Shown: positions 3,268 through 64,000 of the stretch, piece by piece
How the letters are laid out: each line of letters starts with the position of its first letter
Numbering within the stretch: position 1 is the first letter of the stretch
Source: Acholeplasma granularum ATCC 19168
GTDB lineage: Bacteria; Bacillota_I; Bacilli_A; Acholeplasmatales; Acholeplasmataceae
Length of the DNA stretch: 64,000 nt
Assembly (NCBI RefSeq): GCF_000526235.1
Contig: NZ_JAFR01000010.1
Coordinates: 1-64,000, forward strand
Direction of reading: 5' to 3'
The notes under the pieces: generated by a model
Seen by the model: the letters and a program-made list of their open reading frames with translations, nothing else
Told to the model about the DNA's origin: nothing
The model's database searches: none
Translations under genes and position numbers: made by a program

Positions 3268-4596
3268 ATGAAAATCAAAGAAATATTAAATCAAAACTTA
3301 AGCGATAAAGAACTGCTTGAAATATTAAAAGATATGCATGCTTTTGATATTGCTCAAAGTTTTTCTTTATTAGAAGAAGATGATATTAATCGAATTAAAA
3401 ATTTATTACCACCTGAGTTATTAGCAGATGTATATTCATATTTAAATCCAGAGGATGCTGCTGAAATTCTTCAAACTCAAACATTGGATGAACAAATAGA
3501 AGTTATCTCAAACTTAGAGCCAGATGATGCTGCAGATATTATTAATGAATTTGAAGAAGAAGAAAAAGAAGAGTTGATGGATGCATTAAAAGATGAAGAT
3601 ATTCTTTCTTTAATGCAATATGAAGAAGAAACAGCAGGATCATATATGACCAATGATATTTTGTTTGTTAATCAAATTGAAAGTGTTAAAGAAGCAACTA
3701 AAAAACTTATTAAAAAAGCCAATGAACTAAAAAGTATTAAAACAGTATTTGTTGTAGATAAGGAAGAATCATATATAGGTCAAATCAGTCTACAAAGCCT
3801 TTTAAGAGCAAAAGAACCTTTAACAGTTAATGATCTTTATGAAACAGAACCAGTTTTAAATGAGCATGATGATGTTGATACAATTATTAAGCATATAAAA
3901 CATTATGGTGCATATGATATCCCAATTGTTAGTGAAAAAAATAAACTATTAGGTGCAATTACAACCGATGATATTTTAGATATTTACCGTGATGAAACAG
4001 TTGAAGATATTGAAAAATTAAATATATTACCAGATACCGATTTAGATCAAAATGTATTTATTAGTTCATTTAAAAGACTGCCTTGGTTACTAATTTTAAT
4101 GCTTTTAAGTATACCACTTGCTTTTATTACTTCAAATTATGAAGAAATTTTAACAAGTATCGTTATCTTAGCATTTTTTCAACCTTTAATGTTAGATTCA
4201 GGTGGAGATGTTGCATCTCAGACTTTAGCTGTAACACTTGTAGGATTAACATCAAAAGAAGGTGTTGATATTAAAGATGGAATAAAAGAAATTATATCAG
4301 GTACGATTTCAGGACTTGTAATGGGTATTTTAGCATTTATAGCAACTCTTGGATTAAGCCAATTTATGCAAGTAGATTCTCCTCTATTAGTTGCACTTGT
4401 CGTTGGAATATCTTTATGGCTCACAGTTATAAGTGCACCAATATTAGGCTTTTTCATACCTAATTTACTTCATAAATTAAATTTTGATCCAGCTGTTGCA
4501 TCAGGTCCTTTCATTACAACACTGATAGATATTATTAGTATTGTTATATATTTTGGTCTAGCTACACTTTTATTAGGAGGAAGTATAAATGTTTAA
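3268..4596 (+). CDS. mgtE: Magnesium transporter MgtE, first of a tandem pair
   Basis: The start is placed at 3268 because AAGGAGGG lies just before it; an upstream in-frame ATG would begin inside the terminator. The 442-residue protein has the MgtE order: an N-terminal superhelical domain rich in acidic DAADIINEFEEEEKEE-type repeats, a CBS pair (about 125-250), then five membrane helices. The family motif GGNAGSQ reads GGDVASQ here. The pore aspartate position in the last helix is kept (TTLIDIISIV). MgtE is a Mg2+ channel gated by cytosolic Mg2+ through the N and CBS domains. The 3' end overlaps the next mgtE by 8 bases. Confidence 0.9.
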   Translation: MKIKEILNQNLSDKELLEILKDMHAFDIAQSFSLLEEDDINRIKNLLPPELLADVYSYLNPEDAAEILQTQTLDEQIEVISNLEPDDAADIINEFEEEEKEELMDALKDEDILSLMQYEEETAGSYMTNDILFVNQIESVKEATKKLIKKANELKSIKTVFVVDKEESYIGQISLQSLLRAKEPLTVNDLYETEPVLNEHDDVDTIIKHIKHYGAYDIPIVSEKNKLLGAITTDDILDIYRDETVEDIEKLNILPDTDLDQNVFISSFKRLPWLLILMLLSIPLAFITSNYEEILTSIVILAFFQPLMLDSGGDVASQTLAVTLVGLTSKEGVDIKDGIKEIISGTISGLVMGILAFIATLGLSQFMQVDSPLLVALVVGISLWLTVISAPILGFFIPNLLHKLNFDPAVASGPFITTLIDIISIVIYFGLATLLLGGSINV

Positions 4597-5911
4597 TATA
4601 GATTTTAATTTATCACCTAATAAACTGAAACTAGAATTATTAAAACTTCATGAATCAGATATAGCGGATTTATTTGAAGAAAATAAAATCTATAGGGAAA
4701 AAATATATTTGGTATTAGGCGTTAAAAGTTTTAAAAATGTGTTTGTCTTATTAAGTGAAGACGTACAAGTTGAGTTTTTTGATTCACTGAATACAGATCA
4801 AAAAAGATCATTACTTAAGTTTTTAGATACAGATGATATTAAAACTTTAATTGACTTATATGATAGAAAAAATCAATTAAATATCATATTATTACTTCAA
4901 GAAAAAACTAAAAATGAAATCACAAAACTTCTTAGTTATGAAGTTGGATCTTCAGGCTCTTTATCATCTCCTCACTTCATTAGTTTAGACATCAATACGA
5001 ATATAAAAGATGCTACAAAGTATGTCATAACAGAAAGTAAAGAAAAAGATCAAATTGATGTTATCTTTTTCTATAATGAATCAAAGGTATTTGTTGGTGC
5101 ATTAACACTTCAAGAATTAATTATTGCACGTGCAAATCAAAAAATAAGTAACTTAATTAATGAAAATTATCCATTTGTTTATGATAATGAACCTGTTACA
5201 GAAGCAATTAAAAAAATTAGAGACTATGATATTGAAGCAATTCCAGTACTTGATTTAGAAGGTCAAATTGTTGGTATTATACCTTTAGAAGATGCTTTAA
5301 TCTTAATGGATGAAATGCATATTGAAACGATTGGACAATTATATAAAGTTCATGATTTAAAACAAACCGATTCACCACTTAAAAGATCATATGTACGTTT
5401 ACCTTGGTTATTAATAAGTGCTGCATTAAATTTAGTTATCGTATCATTTCTATCTATTTTTCAAGGTACATTAGAATCGAATATAGCACTTATATTATTT
5501 CAGCCAATGATACTTGCTATGGCAGGAAATATTGGTACTCAAAGTATTTCAGTAACTATTTTAAGATTTCAAAAAGAAGCAAATATCCACAAGAACCATA
5601 TATTAAAAGAAATAGGTATTGGATTAATTAACGGCTTATTATCTGGTATATTAGGTATATTAATTGTCTATGTTTTCTTATACTTACTACCAAATAATTA
5701 TGTAGATATGCATTTGGTGGCACTAACTGTTGGTTTATCACTGTTTTTAGCGATGTTTGTATCATCACTTTGTGGTGTATTTATACCAGTTATCTTAAGA
5801 AGGTTTGGTTTTGATGAAAAAGCAGCAAGTGGTCCATTAATTACAACAATTAACGATTTTTTTGCATTAGGTATTTATTTTTTAATCGCAACCCTCATTC
5901 TTCTAGTTTAA
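4589..5911 (+). CDS. mgtE: Magnesium transporter MgtE, second of a tandem pair
   Basis: A 440-residue paralogue of the preceding gene, sharing an 8-base overlap, so the two are almost certainly co-translated. Domain order is the same: N domain, CBS pair (about 130-250) and a transmembrane domain from about residue 275. Its pore-region motif reads AGNIGTQS and the last helix keeps the Asp (ITTINDFFAL). The two copies differ at different conserved positions, which suggests specialisation or a heterodimer, since MgtE works as a dimer; that is inference. Confidence 0.85.
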   Translation: MFNIDFNLSPNKLKLELLKLHESDIADLFEENKIYREKIYLVLGVKSFKNVFVLLSEDVQVEFFDSLNTDQKRSLLKFLDTDDIKTLIDLYDRKNQLNIILLLQEKTKNEITKLLSYEVGSSGSLSSPHFISLDINTNIKDATKYVITESKEKDQIDVIFFYNESKVFVGALTLQELIIARANQKISNLINENYPFVYDNEPVTEAIKKIRDYDIEAIPVLDLEGQIVGIIPLEDALILMDEMHIETIGQLYKVHDLKQTDSPLKRSYVRLPWLLISAALNLVIVSFLSIFQGTLESNIALILFQPMILAMAGNIGTQSISVTILRFQKEANIHKNHILKEIGIGLINGLLSGILGILIVYVFLYLLPNNYVDMHLVALTVGLSLFLAMFVSSLCGVFIPVILRRFGFDEKAASGPLITTINDFFALGIYFLIATLILLV

Positions 5912-5987
5912 AATGGTTTAAAATAAAAAAAGACATATAAATATGTTAAAATGGCATATAGAAAATAAATGTAAGAGGTGTAATCAA

Positions 5988-6890
5988 ATGAGAATCCATT
6001 TAGTAGGATTAGGTAAAATGGGTGCTAATTTAGCACTGAATTTAAAAGAAAATAATCATGAAGTAATCGGTTTTGATTTAAACGATGAAGCACGTGCAAA
6101 ATTAAATAAAGCAGGCATAGAAACACATGATGAACTAAATACCTTCTTAAAAAGACGTGATAATCAAAGATTAATTGTATGGTTATTAATTCCTAATAAT
6201 TTAGTTGATCAAGTAATTGATCAGATCATTCCATATTTAAATGAAAAAGATATTATTGTTGATGGTGGAAATTCAAATTATAAATTATCAATGTCAAGAT
6301 ATGAAAGATTAAAAGAATTAGATATTGAATTTATCGATGTCGGTACATCTGGTGGTACAGAAGGTGCTAGACATGGTGCATGCTTAATGATTGGTGGAAC
6401 AAAAGAAGCATTTGATTATTTAGAACCTGTATATAAAGATATATCAATGGAAGATGGATATGGATTTATGGGTTCACCAGGTAGTGGACATTTTGTAAAA
6501 ATGGTTCACAATGGTATTGAATATGGCATGATGCAAGCTATTGGTGAAGGCTTTGAACTCATTGAATCATCACCTTTTGAAGTAGATTATCACTTACTTA
6601 CTAAAGTATGGAATAGTGGTTCAATTATTGAATCAGCACTTGTAGGTTATATTGGTTCTGCATTTAGTAAAGATGCTAAATTAGAACAAATAGAAGGTCG
6701 TATTGATGATAGTGGTGAAGGTAAATGGATGGTAGAAGAAGCGCTTGATTTTGGGGTTGCTATACCGGTTATTGCTCAAAGTTTATTTACACGTTATAAA
6801 TCAAGAGATAATGTAAAATTTAGTGAGAAAGTGGTTGCTGCTATGCGTAATGAATTTGGTGGGCATGCAGTATATAAAAAGAAAAAATGA
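5988..6890 (+). CDS. gnd: 6-phosphogluconate dehydrogenase, decarboxylating (short NAD-type)
   Basis: Oxidises 6-phosphogluconate to ribulose 5-phosphate and CO2. The ATG at 5988 is chosen because GLGKMG, the dinucleotide-binding motif, then falls at residues 6-11; an in-frame ATG 45 bases upstream would add an unconserved leader. DGGNSNYKLS, GTSGGTEGARHG and HFVKMVHNGIEYGMMQ are the substrate and catalytic blocks. At 300 residues it matches the short GndA/YqeC-type enzymes rather than the 470-residue form. It overlaps zwf by ATGA, so both oxidative pentose phosphate enzymes are coupled. No 6-phosphogluconolactonase gene is seen. Confidence 0.92.
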   Translation: MRIHLVGLGKMGANLALNLKENNHEVIGFDLNDEARAKLNKAGIETHDELNTFLKRRDNQRLIVWLLIPNNLVDQVIDQIIPYLNEKDIIVDGGNSNYKLSMSRYERLKELDIEFIDVGTSGGTEGARHGACLMIGGTKEAFDYLEPVYKDISMEDGYGFMGSPGSGHFVKMVHNGIEYGMMQAIGEGFELIESSPFEVDYHLLTKVWNSGSIIESALVGYIGSAFSKDAKLEQIEGRIDDSGEGKWMVEEALDFGVAIPVIAQSLFTRYKSRDNVKFSEKVVAAMRNEFGGHAVYKKKK

Positions 6891-8230
6891 AAAAGGATCT
6901 AATAATTACAATATTTGGTTCAACAGGAGATTTAACTGCTAGAAAACTACTTCCAGCAATTACAGCACTATATGAATCTAAAAATATTACTAACAATGTT
7001 CAGATCATAGCGTTAGGAAGAAGAGATTTTACAACGGAAGAATATCTAACGTATATTCAAAAACTAACCAAAAAGCCACTTAAACTTAATGTATTAAGAA
7101 ATATATTAACATATTATAAAATACAAATTACAGAATTAGATGATTATATTAATTTTCAAAAATATATATCTAACCTTACAAATCCTCAAACAAAGCAAAT
7201 ATATTACATGGCTATTGGACCTGAAATTTTAAAAAATGTAGCTAAAAACGTATCTCAATCTAAATTAATTGAACACCAAAACCCTAATCATGTTTTAGTA
7301 TTTGAAAAACCATTTGGCCACGACTTAGAATCTGCAATGAAAGTTAATGAAATGTTATGGTCATATTTTGATGAACAACAAATATTTAGAATTGATCATT
7401 ATCTAGGAAAAGAAATGATTCAAAACCTTATGACAGTCAGATTTGCCAACCGTATATTTGAAGATACTTGGGATTCAAAATCAATTTCAAAAGTAAAAAT
7501 CCATGTTAAAGAACAAGAAGGTATTTTAACAAGAGCAGGATACTATGACACATCAGGTGCCTTAAAAGATATGGTACAGTCACATCTACTTCAAATACTA
7601 TCATTGGTTGCAATGGATGCACCTAAAAAATATCATTCTGAATACATAAAGGATGAAAAAGTAAAGGTATTAAGAAGTTTAACGCTTGATACAGATTGTG
7701 CAATATTTGGTCAATATAAAGGATATCTTGATGAAGAAAACATTCCTTTAGATTCTAAAACTGAAACATTTGTATATTTTAGAGTATTTGTTAATACACC
7801 AAGATTTAGAGGTGTGCCATTTGAAATATTAACAGGTAAAAAATTAGATAAAAAAGAATCTTATATTGAAATTGAATATTACCCAACAGATGAACAGTCA
7901 AAATGGCAATTAGATACCGTACCAAACAAATTAAGAATTAATATTCAGCCAGATGATGGTGTAGAACTATCAATTAATTCTAAAAAACCTGGATTAAAAG
8001 AAAATTTAGAAGAAGTACATCTAAGTTTTAAAACAGCTGAATCAGTTGAAGGAAATATCCCTGAAGCTTATGAAAAATTAATTTTAGATATTGTTACAGG
8101 ACATCGCACACTATTTACAAGATGGGACGAAATAGATGCAAGTTGGCATTTCATTGATCAAGTAAAAAAAGCTTGTAAAAAATTTGTAGTCTATGAAAAT
8201 GAATCAGATATCTTAAGTCATATTAAATAA
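6887..8230 (+). CDS. zwf: Glucose-6-phosphate 1-dehydrogenase
   Basis: Catalyses the NADP-linked oxidation of glucose 6-phosphate, the entry step of the oxidative pentose phosphate pathway. The 447-residue protein opens with the nucleotide-binding GSTGDLTARK block and carries the active-site signature RIDHYLGKE (about residue 165). It is slightly shorter than the usual 480-500 residues. The start overlaps the gnd stop by four bases, and a terminator follows directly. Confidence 0.95.
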   Translation: MKKDLIITIFGSTGDLTARKLLPAITALYESKNITNNVQIIALGRRDFTTEEYLTYIQKLTKKPLKLNVLRNILTYYKIQITELDDYINFQKYISNLTNPQTKQIYYMAIGPEILKNVAKNVSQSKLIEHQNPNHVLVFEKPFGHDLESAMKVNEMLWSYFDEQQIFRIDHYLGKEMIQNLMTVRFANRIFEDTWDSKSISKVKIHVKEQEGILTRAGYYDTSGALKDMVQSHLLQILSLVAMDAPKKYHSEYIKDEKVKVLRSLTLDTDCAIFGQYKGYLDEENIPLDSKTETFVYFRVFVNTPRFRGVPFEILTGKKLDKKESYIEIEYYPTDEQSKWQLDTVPNKLRINIQPDDGVELSINSKKPGLKENLEEVHLSFKTAESVEGNIPEAYEKLILDIVTGHRTLFTRWDEIDASWHFIDQVKKACKKFVVYENESDILSHIK

Positions 8231-33445: not shown

Positions 33446-34846
33446 ATGAAAAAGATATGTTTATTAATTGTGACTTTTTTAAGTATTTTTATAATTGTTT
33501 CATGCACCAATGATAATAACTTTAAGGATTTAGATCGTAATTATATGCCAAATAAAGTAACACAGTCATTTACGCTACCAAAAGGTGACTTTGTTTGGAC
33601 CTCTAACAATGAAGATGTAATTAAAGTAGAAGAAAATCAGGCAATAGTAACTCAAGATGTAGTTGACGTATTAGTTACCTTGTCTGCGTCATCTGATGAT
33701 AGAAAAGAAAACTTCGATGTTTTAGTCTTAAAAAATGGTAGTGGTCTATCAGTATTTGAAAAAGCGCAAGAATTTATGAAATCTCATAGTGAAATATTAA
33801 TTGATTTTGAGGGGCTATATATTGATAAACAAATTGATGATCTTTATTTATCATTTGATGACAATCAAAATGACAACAATTCAACACCTACGTATAGCGA
33901 TGAAGGTGAATATATTTATATAAGCTATTTAGATTTAAATCACCGGTTTTTAAATATCTATTTCAATGAAATGATAGAAGGTGAACTAGTAAGAGTTCAT
34001 GTTAATGTTATTAAATTAATCTATAGAAATGAAGAAGATATATTTTATAATCTTAGACCGTTTAATACATATTTAGAAGAGGGGATTCAGAAACTATATA
34101 TTACTAACAAAGGCCAGTTAAATAATTATCTTGAAACACTCAATTTAGATATCGTAGACCAAGAATATTTAACTTATTTAAATGGTATTAAAGAAAGTAG
34201 TTATTTTCTTTCTAATAATTCGCTGCTATTAATTAGAATTGTACAAATATCATCAGATAATGAGGTTAGAGTAGGAAACATTAAAATAAAAGATGGTAAT
34301 TTAATTGTTGATTTAAATGCTAAACATGGTTCAAATGAAGCTATGAGGTTTTGGGATTTTGTAATAGAAATAAAAAATGGCTATTCAGCAATAAAAGATG
34401 TTTTAGTTAATGTTAATTATGTTGAGGAATCAAAGTTGTATTTAGAAGCATTTACTTATAACTTTGGCTATTTAGATGAATTAAAAGAAAGATTATTTGT
34501 TATTGATTCATTAGAAGATTTAGAAAATTATATTGGTCTTATTGATGAAAACAATGATTATTATGGTGATAGACATTACCACACATTGTATTATAAGCAT
34601 TTATTAAAATATGATGAATCATATTTTCTTAATAATAAATTAATCTTATTCAATTATAATGCTGGATCTGGAAGTTTCGAATTCGTCTATCAAGATTATA
34701 AGTTTATTGGTAATCAACTAATAATCAATTTTAAATCAAATAATCCAATTGTTGGAACAGATGATATTAGACCTTGGAATTTCATCATTGAAGTTAATAA
34801 GTTATTAGAATTTGATGAAGTTGATATTAAGATTGGAAATAGATGA
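33446..34846 (+). CDS. Lipoprotein with an N-terminal Ig-like domain, ECF-operon member
   Basis: 466 residues. A signal peptide ends in a lipobox IIVSC with Cys at residue 20. Residues about 35-112 fit an atrophied bacterial Ig domain (SFTLPKGDFVWTSNNEDVIK). The rest holds two similar blocks near 215-330 and 345-460, both ending in RFWDFVIEIKNG or RPWNFIIEVNKL, so an internal duplication is likely. No enzyme motif is visible. It follows the sigma and anti-sigma genes and has the shared upstream motif, so it is probably a target of this sigma factor. Confidence 0.75.
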   Translation: MKKICLLIVTFLSIFIIVSCTNDNNFKDLDRNYMPNKVTQSFTLPKGDFVWTSNNEDVIKVEENQAIVTQDVVDVLVTLSASSDDRKENFDVLVLKNGSGLSVFEKAQEFMKSHSEILIDFEGLYIDKQIDDLYLSFDDNQNDNNSTPTYSDEGEYIYISYLDLNHRFLNIYFNEMIEGELVRVHVNVIKLIYRNEEDIFYNLRPFNTYLEEGIQKLYITNKGQLNNYLETLNLDIVDQEYLTYLNGIKESSYFLSNNSLLLIRIVQISSDNEVRVGNIKIKDGNLIVDLNAKHGSNEAMRFWDFVIEIKNGYSAIKDVLVNVNYVEESKLYLEAFTYNFGYLDELKERLFVIDSLEDLENYIGLIDENNDYYGDRHYHTLYYKHLLKYDESYFLNNKLILFNYNAGSGSFEFVYQDYKFIGNQLIINFKSNNPIVGTDDIRPWNFIIEVNKLLEFDEVDIKIGNR

Positions 34847-57414: not shown

Positions 57415-57457
57415 ATTGATTTAAATCAATTTTTAATTATTCTTAAACATATATAAT
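57415..57457 (+). promoter_or_regulatory. FNR-type box and promoter of the metal ATPase operon
   Basis: ATTGATTTAAATCAAT (57415-57430) contains the full FNR consensus TTGAT-N4-ATCAA. A TATAAT is at 57452-57457, so the palindrome centre falls at -41.5, the class II activator position. No good -35 hexamer is present, as expected for an activated promoter. Confidence 0.72.
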
Positions 57458-57489
57458 GAAGGTACAATAAAGAAAAGAGGATATAAAAT

Positions 57490-57792
57490 ATGAAAATAAA
57501 TAACGAATTTAGAAATGATTTAGATCTATATTTAGCTAAATTGGGCATGTATGTTCCAATTGTAGCAAGAGTACACGGTAAACATCATCCGCAAATTTAT
57601 AAAGTAAAAGATATATTTGAAGTAATTGTTTCTAAAACAGATAAAGGAATTAGTGATATAAATTTAGATGAAGAATTTAATCAGTTAAAAGAAATTACTC
57701 ATAATTATTTAGTTCCAAATGATGTATGTGAAAGTTACGAGGCTGTATACAATATGCTTCAAACATTAAATAATAGTTATGATAAAAGGTAG
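57490..57792 (+). CDS. Conserved small protein of unknown function, linked to metal ATPase
   Basis: 100 residues, soluble and mostly helical. VARVHGKHHP with a following NDVCESYEAVYNML are the striking features: clustered His, acidic residues and one Cys could bind a metal. The sequence has a flavour of the hemerythrin-like Fe-S repair family (Ric/ScdA), but I cannot assign it. It is followed by a P1B ATPase 8 bases on. Confidence 0.6.
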   Translation: MKINNEFRNDLDLYLAKLGMYVPIVARVHGKHHPQIYKVKDIFEVIVSKTDKGISDINLDEEFNQLKEITHNYLVPNDVCESYEAVYNMLQTLNNSYDKR

Positions 57793-57800
57793 GTATCTTT

Positions 57801-59651
57801 ATGCAAAGATTTATATTTAAACAAAAAAATAAAATCATGTTATTAAGCTTTTTGCTGATTGTTACAGGTTTTATTGCCCACTACGGATTTAGTAATCAGT
57901 TAGTATTTGAAATAACATTTATAATTGCCTCAGTTATAGGTCTTTTACCAATAGCGCTTCAAGCATATAGTGCATTAAGAGTAAAAGTTGTAAGTATTGA
58001 TTTACTTGTAACGATTGCAGTTATTGGTGCATTCATTATTAAAGAGTTTGAAGAATCAGCAATCGTTACATTCTTATTTTTATTTGGTGCTTATCTAGAA
58101 CAAAGAACATTAACTAAAACAAGACAAGCAATAAAGAAACTTACTGAAATGGCTCCAGAAAGTGCACTTAAATTAGAAAGTGATAATGAGTTTTACGAAG
58201 TTGATGTTGATGAGGTTGAAGTTGGTGATGTATTACTTGTAAAAACTGGTGCTAAAGTTCCTGTTGATGGTGAAGTTATTAAAGGTAGTGGTTATATTAA
58301 TGAAGCAAGTATTACAGGAGAGGCAAACCCAGTAAAAAAAGATATTAAAAGCTTTTTATATGCGGGTACGATATTAGAAAATGGAACAATAGAAATGATT
58401 GCACAAAAAGTTGGTGAAGATACAACTTTTGGTAAGATAATTCATTTGGTTGAAGAAGCGCAAGATTCTAAATCTGAGGCAGAAAAATTTATTAATAAAT
58501 TCTCTAAATATTACACACCATTTGTATTACTATTTGCACTTATTGTATATCTAATTACATTCGATGTAGCTTTAGCAATTACAATTCTTGTCTTAGGTTG
58601 CCCTGGTGCACTTGTTATTGGTGTTCCAGTATCACATGTATCAGGAATTGGTAATGGTGCAAGAAATGGTATTTTATTAAAGGGTAGTGAAGTCATAAGT
58701 GATTTTAGTAAAACAGATACAATTGTATTTGATAAAACAGGAACACTAACGATTGGTCACCCCGAGGTATCAGAAGCTATATATTATAATAATAACGATT
58801 CAGAAATTGACACAATAATTTATAATATCGAAAAAACATCAGATCATCCACTTGCGAAAGCTATCATTAACCATTTAGGTACTAAAGATAATATAAATAT
58901 TCATAAAACAGATGTTGTTAAGGGTGGTGGTATCATTGCAACCCTTGATAAAAAGAAAGTGTTTTTAGGTAATTTAAAACTAATAAATGATCAAAACATA
59001 CATGTATCTACAAAGATTAGTGAAGATATAAAAAGATTAGAAAAACAAGGACATTCGATAGTTATTACTGCCATTGATGATGAAATTGTAAGTCTTATCG
59101 GTATTAAAGATAAAATCAGACCAGAATTATTAAAAAATTTGAGAAAAGTTAAAAAAATGGGTATTAAAAACCTAATCGTATTATCAGGTGATAACCAAGG
59201 TACAGTTGATATGGTCGCAAATGAATTAGAACTATCTAAAGCTATTGGAAATATGCTACCTGAAGATAAGGCAGAATATATAAAGAAACTTCAAAAAGAA
59301 GGTCATATTGTAACATTTGTTGGTGACGGTATTAACGATAGTCCATCTTTGGCACTTGCTAATATTGGTATTGCAATGGGTGGTGGTACGGATGTTGCAA
59401 TTGAAACATCTGATGTTGTCTTAATGAATGATGGTATCAATAAATTACCACATGCTCTTTTATTAACTAAAAAAATCAAACGAAATATGATCCAAAATAT
59501 AGCAATAGCAATTGGAGTTGTTGCAGTCTTGCTATTAAGTTTATTTATTGGTGATTGGTTAAATATGCGTATTGGTATGTTAGTACATGAAGCAAGTATC
59601 TTAGTAGTAATTTTAAATGCAATGAGATTATTAAGATATAAAAAAAATTGA
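57801..59651 (+). CDS. P1B-type heavy-metal ATPase with CPG motif
   Basis: 616 residues. No N-terminal HMA domain; membrane helices start directly. TGEANPVKK (actuator), DKTGTLT with the phosphorylated D311, SDHPLAKA (HP motif) and GDGINDSPSLA are all intact. The metal-site motif in the sixth helix is C267-P268-G269 (LGCPGALVIGVPVS) rather than CPC or SPC. It exports a metal ion; which one is uncertain. It is co-transcribed with the small gene upstream, and its HMA chaperone is encoded separately downstream. Confidence 0.9.
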   Translation: MQRFIFKQKNKIMLLSFLLIVTGFIAHYGFSNQLVFEITFIIASVIGLLPIALQAYSALRVKVVSIDLLVTIAVIGAFIIKEFEESAIVTFLFLFGAYLEQRTLTKTRQAIKKLTEMAPESALKLESDNEFYEVDVDEVEVGDVLLVKTGAKVPVDGEVIKGSGYINEASITGEANPVKKDIKSFLYAGTILENGTIEMIAQKVGEDTTFGKIIHLVEEAQDSKSEAEKFINKFSKYYTPFVLLFALIVYLITFDVALAITILVLGCPGALVIGVPVSHVSGIGNGARNGILLKGSEVISDFSKTDTIVFDKTGTLTIGHPEVSEAIYYNNNDSEIDTIIYNIEKTSDHPLAKAIINHLGTKDNINIHKTDVVKGGGIIATLDKKKVFLGNLKLINDQNIHVSTKISEDIKRLEKQGHSIVITAIDDEIVSLIGIKDKIRPELLKNLRKVKKMGIKNLIVLSGDNQGTVDMVANELELSKAIGNMLPEDKAEYIKKLQKEGHIVTFVGDGINDSPSLALANIGIAMGGGTDVAIETSDVVLMNDGINKLPHALLLTKKIKRNMIQNIAIAIGVVAVLLLSLFIGDWLNMRIGMLVHEASILVVILNAMRLLRYKKN

Positions 59652-59689
59652 TTTAAATCAATGATTTATATAGAATAATGAATTAAACT
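59647..59689 (+). promoter_or_regulatory. Second FNR-type box, before the HMA chaperone gene
   Basis: ATTGATTTAAATCAAT (59647-59662), the same 16 bases as at 57415, overlapping the TGA stop of the ATPase gene. TAAACT at 59684-59689 would place the centre at -41.5; TATATG slightly downstream is an alternative -10. Confidence 0.65.
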
Positions 59690-59720: not shown

Positions 59721-59954
59721 ATGAAAAAAACTACAATTCAACTTGAACAACTTACATGTCCATCATGTCTACAAAAAATTAACAATGCAGTAAAAGCTCT
59801 AGACGGTGTTGATAAAGAATCTGTGAATGTTTTGTTTAATTCGAGTAAAGTTAAACTAAATTTCGATAGTTCGAAAATTGATATAAGCAAAATTGAATCA
59901 TCCATATCAAAACTTGGATATGAAGTCATAAAATCACAAACTAAAGATTTATAA
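59721..59954 (+). CDS. HMA-domain metal chaperone
   Basis: 77 residues, one HMA fold: metal-binding LTCPSC (Cys 13 and 16), then the beta-alpha-beta pattern to LGYEV. CopZ-like. It probably delivers metal to the adjacent ATPase, which lacks its own HMA domain. It has its own FNR-type box. Confidence 0.88.
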   Translation: MKKTTIQLEQLTCPSCLQKINNAVKALDGVDKESVNVLFNSSKVKLNFDSSKIDISKIESSISKLGYEVIKSQTKDL

Positions 59955-62949: not shown

Positions 62950-64000
62950 TTGCACCTTTTTGATAATATACCCGAAACTTTTTTTAATGTCTTGTCTTCT
63001 CCAAATAAACATATATATGTTGATTGTCTATTTATTATATATGATGCTACAAACTCAATTGAAGATTCATTTCAAGGTGAACGTGGTTTTGTTATTGATA
63101 AATTAATTGATTATTTTGATGAATTAAAATCTGATTTTCATATTGATGATATAGAAAGTTCAACATCTCGTCAAAAATCAGTTGCAGTCATAAACGTATT
63201 AAAACAAAATGGATGGTTAGGCGAAGAAGAACTAGGTGATTATAAAACATCACTTAACTTATTTGACTATGCAATAAAAATAATAGATGTTTTAAAACGA
63301 ATTAAAGACGGTGAAGAAACAGAATATACCGGTGAAATATATACAGTATATTCACTATTAACATCTTTTGATATTCATGATGGACTTACAATTATTGAAC
63401 AAGCCTACAAAAAAGTTGAGGATGTTTTAAGAAAACTAAAAACATTAAAAGCTAATATTTATAGATACTATTTTGATTTAGTAAAAAGACAGAAAAAAGA
63501 TGATCTTCAAAGTGTGTTAGAACGTTTATTAGTCGATTATAAGACTAACTTTTTTGATAGTGCATATTATCACTTAAAAACTACAGACTCACTACCAAGA
63601 TATAAACGTCGTATTTTAGAAAGTATAAATGAAATTTACCAACATGATGCATATTTAGACACTCTTGCAAACCAAGCACTTGAAAAAAGACGTAAACATG
63701 ACTTTAATGATGCATTTAACTATGTAGAAGAGCGTATTAGGTACATCAAAAATTCAGTTGATGCGATTGAATATTTAATAGAATCAATTGATGCTAAAAA
63801 TGAATTATATATTAATGCTGCAGCATCAAAAATTATGTTCTTAACAAATACATCTGAGGACCTAGAAGGATTAATGAACCGTCTATTTAAACTTATATTA
63901 AGTCCTAAAAAGATTGATTATAGTCAAATATTTAATTTATTTAGAGCACGTAACTTAGATGAAAACTCGCTTCAAAGTTTAAGACGACCAAGAATTGATG
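62950..64000 (+). CDS. jetA: Wadjet anti-plasmid system protein JetA, partial
   Basis: An open frame of 350 codons runs from a TTG at 62950 (AGGAGG at 62935-62940) to the window end without a stop. The opening, HLFDNIPETFFNVLSSPNKH after the start residue, is typical of JetA (DUF5716). The rest is helical, as expected for a kleisin-like subunit: GWLGEEELGDY (winged-helix-like) and long charged helices such as ALEKRRKHDFNDAF. JetA forms the MukF-like part of the SMC-type JetABC complex, which with JetD cleaves circular plasmid DNA. The remaining genes must lie beyond the window. Confidence 0.8.
   Translation, partial: MHLFDNIPETFFNVLSSPNKHIYVDCLFIIYDATNSIEDSFQGERGFVIDKLIDYFDELKSDFHIDDIESSTSRQKSVAVINVLKQNGWLGEEELGDYKTSLNLFDYAIKIIDVLKRIKDGEETEYTGEIYTVYSLLTSFDIHDGLTIIEQAYKKVEDVLRKLKTLKANIYRYYFDLVKRQKKDDLQSVLERLLVDYKTNFFDSAYYHLKTTDSLPRYKRRILESINEIYQHDAYLDTLANQALEKRRKHDFNDAFNYVEERIRYIKNSVDAIEYLIESIDAKNELYINAAASKIMFLTNTSEDLEGLMNRLFKLILSPKKIDYSQIFNLFRARNLDENSLQSLRRPRID

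Follow-up and report, generated by a model that had tools for sequence, protein, structure and literature searches.

Putative FLP/FNR-type boxes before a metal ATPase operon and its carrier gene in Acholeplasma granularum

The operon and its boxes

The 64,000-nucleotide stretch of Acholeplasma granularum DNA analysed here (the window) has a G+C content of 28% and carries, towards its end, genes for a shortened RIC relative, a P1B-type ATPase and a small metal carrier, together with two copies of a palindromic 16-mer. The genes and putative regulatory elements, in window coordinates, are:

57415 to 57430, no strand assigned: box 1, ATTGATTTAAATCAAT, an exact palindrome centred at 57422.5, putative FLP/FNR-type site
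57452 to 57457, plus strand: TATAAT, predicted -10 of the operon promoter, 29.5 bp past the box 1 centre; predicted start at about 57464
57490 to 57792, plus strand: mini-RIC, 100 aa, shortened RIC/ScdA/YtfE relative (TIGR03652, E 6e-12, partial-length match)
57801 to 59651, plus strand: P1B-type ATPase, 616 aa, ion-binding helix with CPG, HEAS close to the C-terminus, without a fused HMA domain
59647 to 59662, no strand assigned: box 2, identical to box 1, centred at 59654.5 and overlapping the ATPase stop codon
59684 to 59689, plus strand: TAAACT, weak (4/6) candidate -10 of the hma promoter, 29.5 bp past the box 2 centre
59721 to 59954, plus strand: hma, HMA-domain metal carrier, 77 aa, with a CPSC motif (PF00403, E 3e-13)

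The initial annotation of this DNA had placed the same 16-mer, with its TTGAT-N4-ATCAA dyad, at 57415 and 59647; both copies proved exact on re-reading, and the second does run across the end of the ATPase gene, as had been claimed, with the TGA at 59649-59651 inside it. The ATPase matches TIGR01525 (E 3e-158; 528 bits, against a curated cut-off of 346), and the carrier matches PF00403. The ATPase contains the DKTGTLT and CPG motifs expected of the P1B superfamily, and its best match in the PDB is sCoaT (7qbz), whose SPC and HEGST align with its CPG and HEASI; it lacks the P1B-4 combination of an ion-binding helix with SPC and a HEGxT motif close to the end. A literature search on the CPG subgroup of P1B ATPases returned nothing usable.

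The product of the first gene, which had been described as a small unknown protein, is a shortened RIC/ScdA relative. Its AlphaFold model (pLDDT 93) consists of four helices, and the best Foldseek matches of this model are Staphylococcus aureus ScdA/RIC and Escherichia coli YtfE (probability up to 1.00, E 0.02). The di-iron site of YtfE is built from four His and two Glu residues (PMC9268430). In an alignment of 40 mini-RIC sequences the only invariant His residues are H29 and H33, so that mini-RIC does not present the whole set of di-iron ligands.

A scan of the region against Rfam detected no RNA element. Farther along, positions 62950-64000 of the window hold the start of a gene matching the Wadjet protein JetA (PF18982, E 5e-60), which probably marks the beginning of an anti-plasmid defence system at the window end.

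Rarity of the box in the genome

Elsewhere in the window the best further match to the 16-mer has 3 mismatches. In the assembly as a whole (G000; 1.45 Mb in 14 contigs, 95% complete) TTGATN4ATCAA was counted 24 times, compared with 9 occurrences of the reversed control pattern, and 22 of the 24 copies lie within ORFs, the remaining two being boxes 1 and 2; among the genic copies is one at window position 33855, counted as such by the ORF criterion and valid only if its ORF is real. The more degenerate TTGAY-N4-RTCAA is found exactly 39 times, against 18 for the control, with 37 copies within ORFs and boxes 1 and 2 as the sole intergenic pair among the stretches read. The search for further copies that the initial annotation had recommended thus uncovered no additional intergenic box in the assembly, and the abundance of copies inside genes that it had named as grounds for doubt applies to the degenerate motif, with its 37 genic copies, and not to the 16-mer. 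These genic copies are outweighed by the conservation of the box across genera, described below.

The base composition of the intergenic DNA predicts about one intergenic TTGATN4ATCAA by chance in the whole genome, and the raw count by itself is therefore weak proof. The exact 16-mer, for which the expectation in all intergenic DNA is 0.003, was seen twice, both times in one operon. AT-rich DNA of this kind, in which the degenerate motif is common within genes, might be thought to throw up functionless chance repeats, and the boxes could in principle be no more than that; the expectation for the exact 16-mer and the retention of box and spacing across genera and classes make such an origin scarcely credible.

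Promoter geometry at the locus and among relatives

The boxes had both been assigned to position -41.5 relative to predicted transcription starts. This holds for box 1, since TATAAT begins 29.5 bp past its centre (57422.5 to 57452). For box 2 the spacing is there, but its own -10 falls short in strength: the sequence at the corresponding spot in this genome is TAAACT, which scores only 4/6, so that the strength of the hma promoter is uncertain and the placing of box 2 at -41.5 rests mainly on two congeners (G002 and G003), in which an identical 14-bp core of box 2 lies at the ATPase stop and is followed by a perfect TATAAT at exactly 29.5 bp. In G003 hma is split by a frameshift (L035:9495-9728), which may be a read error or the mark of a decayed gene; the G002 copy is intact. 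The arrangement at both boxes, an exact TTGAT-N4-ATCAA-type dyad centred 41.5 bases before starts that are predicted from the -10s, is that of a class II promoter.

Among 75 distinct upstream regions of relatives, TTGAY-N4-RTCAA is present exactly in 37, where first-order Markov controls predict 0.45%, and with up to one mismatch in 55 (7.7% predicted), leaving 20 in which a box of this quality is absent. The consensus of the box among relatives is TTGAYYTARRTCAA. When the -10 score is followed along 54 non-redundant promoters it has a single peak, 29.5 bp past the box centre, at which a -10 of at least 5/6 is found in 35 promoters (0 to 3 at each other offset) and one of at least 4/6 in 51; the -10 is preceded by TG in 35/54. 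The same promoters match the -35 sequence TTGACA no better than background, with scores of at least 4/6 in 0-1 of the 54. Judged from these predicted promoters, the conserved spacing is the class II (-41.5) activator geometry, and its preservation across a wide range of Firmicutes upholds the CRP/FNR activator position first proposed for this locus. A box between the ATPase gene and hma, as in A. granularum, is found in 14 of 25 relatives whose gap between these genes is at least 60 bp and in none of 32 with a shorter gap, about eight of the 14 being near-identical mobile copies.

A promoter scan of the window also picked out TTGATT-17-TAGAAT at 59648-59676 (9/12). A sigma-70 promoter that uses box 2 as its -35 was rejected as a candidate because this spacing is not kept in congeners. 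Repression is within reach of FNR-type proteins, and a regulator that binds the boxes could mainly repress, for example by occupying box 2 over the promoter just described; we regard this as improbable, since the congeners do not keep the TTGATT-TAGAAT spacing and do keep TATAAT at 29.5 bp, and since the box 1 promoters offer no -35 to block.

The regulator and its linkage to the operon

The search for a CRP/FNR regulator proposed in the initial annotation found exactly one protein of this family (cNMP-binding domain) in the assembly:

G000:C8:136225-136920: CRP/FNR regulator, 231 aa, with an HTH_Crp_2 domain; apart from the operon, after pflB-pflA

Its recognition helix, TTPESLSRKL, is of the FNR type (ExxSR, here ExLSR), and its N-terminus, MKDNNHNHDHTC, is rich in His. 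In an alignment with operon-linked relatives C12 and C110 are invariant, and they are the only two retained of the four cysteines in the full FNR iron-sulfur signature (CX2CX5C plus a distal Cys), which makes it a CRP/FNR protein with two conserved cysteines, that is, of the FLP type. Among Gram-positive FNR-like proteins, two cysteines instead of four are frequent (PMC5039431). The motif scan of the assembly detected no exact box upstream of the pfl genes or of the regulator gene itself. The neighbours of the regulator gene we take, on reading their sequences alone, to be pflB, pflA and a YaaA-like gene; the latter lies 3' of the regulator gene (L001:2111-2812), as it does in two congeners, and presumably has to do with peroxide/iron stress.

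Mini-RIC is encoded in 10 of 120 genomes, the present one included, and in all 10 the ATPase gene comes after it, with hma next wherever the contig is long enough. A CRP/FNR gene is found immediately upstream of the operon in G034, G088, G051 and G094 (cut by the contig end in the last two) and immediately downstream of hma in G086. CRP/FNR domains were detected in 9 of the 10 mini-RIC genomes, the tenth being G051 with its truncated regulator, as compared to 28 of the 110 that lack mini-RIC (p 9e-5). Two further congeners have the box, hma, the ATPase gene and a CRP/FNR gene, in this order, as one operon that lacks mini-RIC and has its -10 at 29.5 bp:

L202:3391-6340, and L203 reverse strand, 4093-6892 of the reverse complement: divergent hma-ATPase-CRP/FNR systems of congeners G004 and G005

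These operons link regulator and box within the genus. In a wider sample, the best 80 of 314 mini-RIC relatives at named loci (mostly from MAGs and isolates of Clostridia and Bacilli), the ATPase gene follows mini-RIC in 76 and hma follows the ATPase gene in most contigs that are long enough. Near-identical flp - mini-RIC - ATPase - hma copies occur at L073, L079, L081, L085-L090, L092 and L095, in hosts that include Streptococcus suis, Globicatella, Enterococcus aquimarinus, Hathewaya and Fusibacter; some lie beside transposase- or recombinase-like genes, which points to recent horizontal transfer. Several of the adjacent regulators at clostridial loci retain all four cysteines of the FNR-like CX2CX5C plus distal Cys pattern. 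The regulators of the Lactobacillales and of the family of A. granularum have a reduced set of cysteines and, often, a His-rich N-terminus.

Metal ATPases are commonly controlled by repressors of the ArsR, MerR or Fur type, and the boxes might therefore be operators of some such dyad-binding regulator, their match to the FNR site being coincidental. We hold this to be very improbable, given that many genomes have an ExxSR-type CRP/FNR gene within the operon or next to it and that a -41.5 position without a -35 suits an activator, not a repressor.

Plasmid-borne units

Plasmid-borne ATPase genes of this kind, accompanied by hma and dps, occur in Enterococcus faecalis, Lactococcus lactis, Tetragenococcus, Ligilactobacillus and Staphylococcus equorum; an annotated Crp/Fnr gene joins them in the plasmid records from Enterococcus and Tetragenococcus. 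Most of the units (dps, flp, hma, ATPase) have a box of their own, and a -10 of 5/6 or 6/6 stands at 29.5 bp in every one examined.

L149, L150, L151, L153, L154: plasmid loci with dps, flp, hma, a CPG-type ATPase and repeated FNR-type boxes

On one Staphylococcus plasmid a multicopper oxidase gene lies beside the ATPase gene, which makes copper a possible substrate.

Proposed regulation

On the sequence evidence assembled here, the two boxes are very probably sites of the sole FLP-type regulator of the genome, through which it would activate the pump operon and hma from the class II position. The sites, their geometry, and the presence and linkage of the regulator are all supported by the comparisons above. 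Counted against this reading are the location of the regulator gene, which here is neither in nor adjoining the operon, the lack of an exact box before it, the weak second -10, and the 20 of 75 upstream regions in which no box with up to one mismatch is seen.

We infer direct binding and activation, as well as the signal, the metal and the direction of transport, along the following lines. A dimer of the regulator would bind at -41.5 and recruit RNA polymerase to promoters in which a -10 stands without a -35. Box 1 would drive mini-RIC, the ATPase gene and, by read-through, hma, and box 2 would supply hma with a regulated promoter of its own, adding to its expression. The pump and its CxxC carrier most likely export a transition metal, which may be iron- or zinc-like because of the HE motif and the company of dps and RIC genes. 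Iron or iron-sulfur damage is the probable target of mini-RIC. The likely trigger would be redox state, oxygen, NO or a metal, sensed by way of the Cys pair and His-rich N-terminus of the regulator. The interpretation given in the initial annotation is thus supported overall, with export by the pump and an oxygen, NO or related signal as its conjectural parts.

More tentatively, and with some doubt, the regulator, shortened RIC, CPG-HE-type ATPase and CxxC carrier, sometimes with dps, may form a separate stress system in which the regulator has shifted from an iron-sulfur to a two-cysteine form while the box and its -41.5 position stayed fixed, with the present genome as a mollicute-family version that has a one-locus regulon.

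Comparison with known systems

Escherichia coli FNR shares with the A. granularum system the TTGAT-N4-ATCAA half-sites, the ExxSR helix and the -41.5 position; it differs in that the CX2CX5C part is missing here, C12 and C110 being the equivalents of its C29 and C122. HcpR, likewise of the CRP/FNR family, recognizes TTGACN4GTCAA in some lineages and may control RIC (dnrN) genes, and the motif of its clostridial HcpR2 branch is GTAACN4GTTAC (PMC1274295). The hcp/prismane family, the target expected of an HcpR regulon, has no match in the assembly, and on this absence together with the different clostridial motif the identification of the regulator as an HcpR was rejected. P1B-4 ATPases (sCoaT, PfeT/PmtA type) also have an HE motif near the C-terminus, but the pump described here has CPG where they have SPC, HEAS/HEGS where they have HEGST, and a separate HMA carrier. 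ScdA and YtfE resemble mini-RIC over part of their length, in family and in structure, whereas mini-RIC has only 100 aa and two invariant His.

There is also a likeness with the FLPs of lactic acid bacteria and streptococci. In L. lactis the flp genes come last in operons of the type orfX-orfY-flp, which the hma-ATPase-flp operons of the congeners resemble. FlpA and FlpB of L. lactis, the FLP of Lactobacillus casei and FlpS of S. suis are, like the present regulator, CRP/FNR proteins with few cysteines and links to metal or oxidative stress; dpr, which is changed in the FlpS system of S. suis, is counted as a further likeness. Ties of FLP-type regulators to metal and oxidative stress are established for lactic acid bacteria (PMC3616900, PMC5039431), and the FlpA regulon has been assigned to metal homeostasis (PMC3616900). 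In contrast to the FLPs of lactic acid bacteria, the regulator gene here stands separately, after pflBA, and exact intergenic boxes are confined to the operon.

In the part of the literature that was covered we found no paper on CRP/FNR regulons in Acholeplasma or other mollicutes and none on the dps-flp-hma-ATPase plasmid cluster, which is weak evidence; nor did we find, in the literature searched, a description of the breadth and fixed geometry of the box arrangement. The comparison connects one type of regulator with a short relative of RIC and with a metal pump that is common but uncharacterised, through a box and a spacing found across much of the Firmicutes, and it provides a mollicute-family regulator-site pair in a genome with a single CRP/FNR protein. 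It also reveals a natural series of regulators at the same promoter, some iron-sulfur FNR-like and others two-cysteine FLP-like, so that what the Gram-positive FLPs sense becomes directly testable. The system as a whole is of a known kind, the FLP-type metal/redox regulons of Gram-positive bacteria, of which the A. granularum locus is a mollicute-family member.
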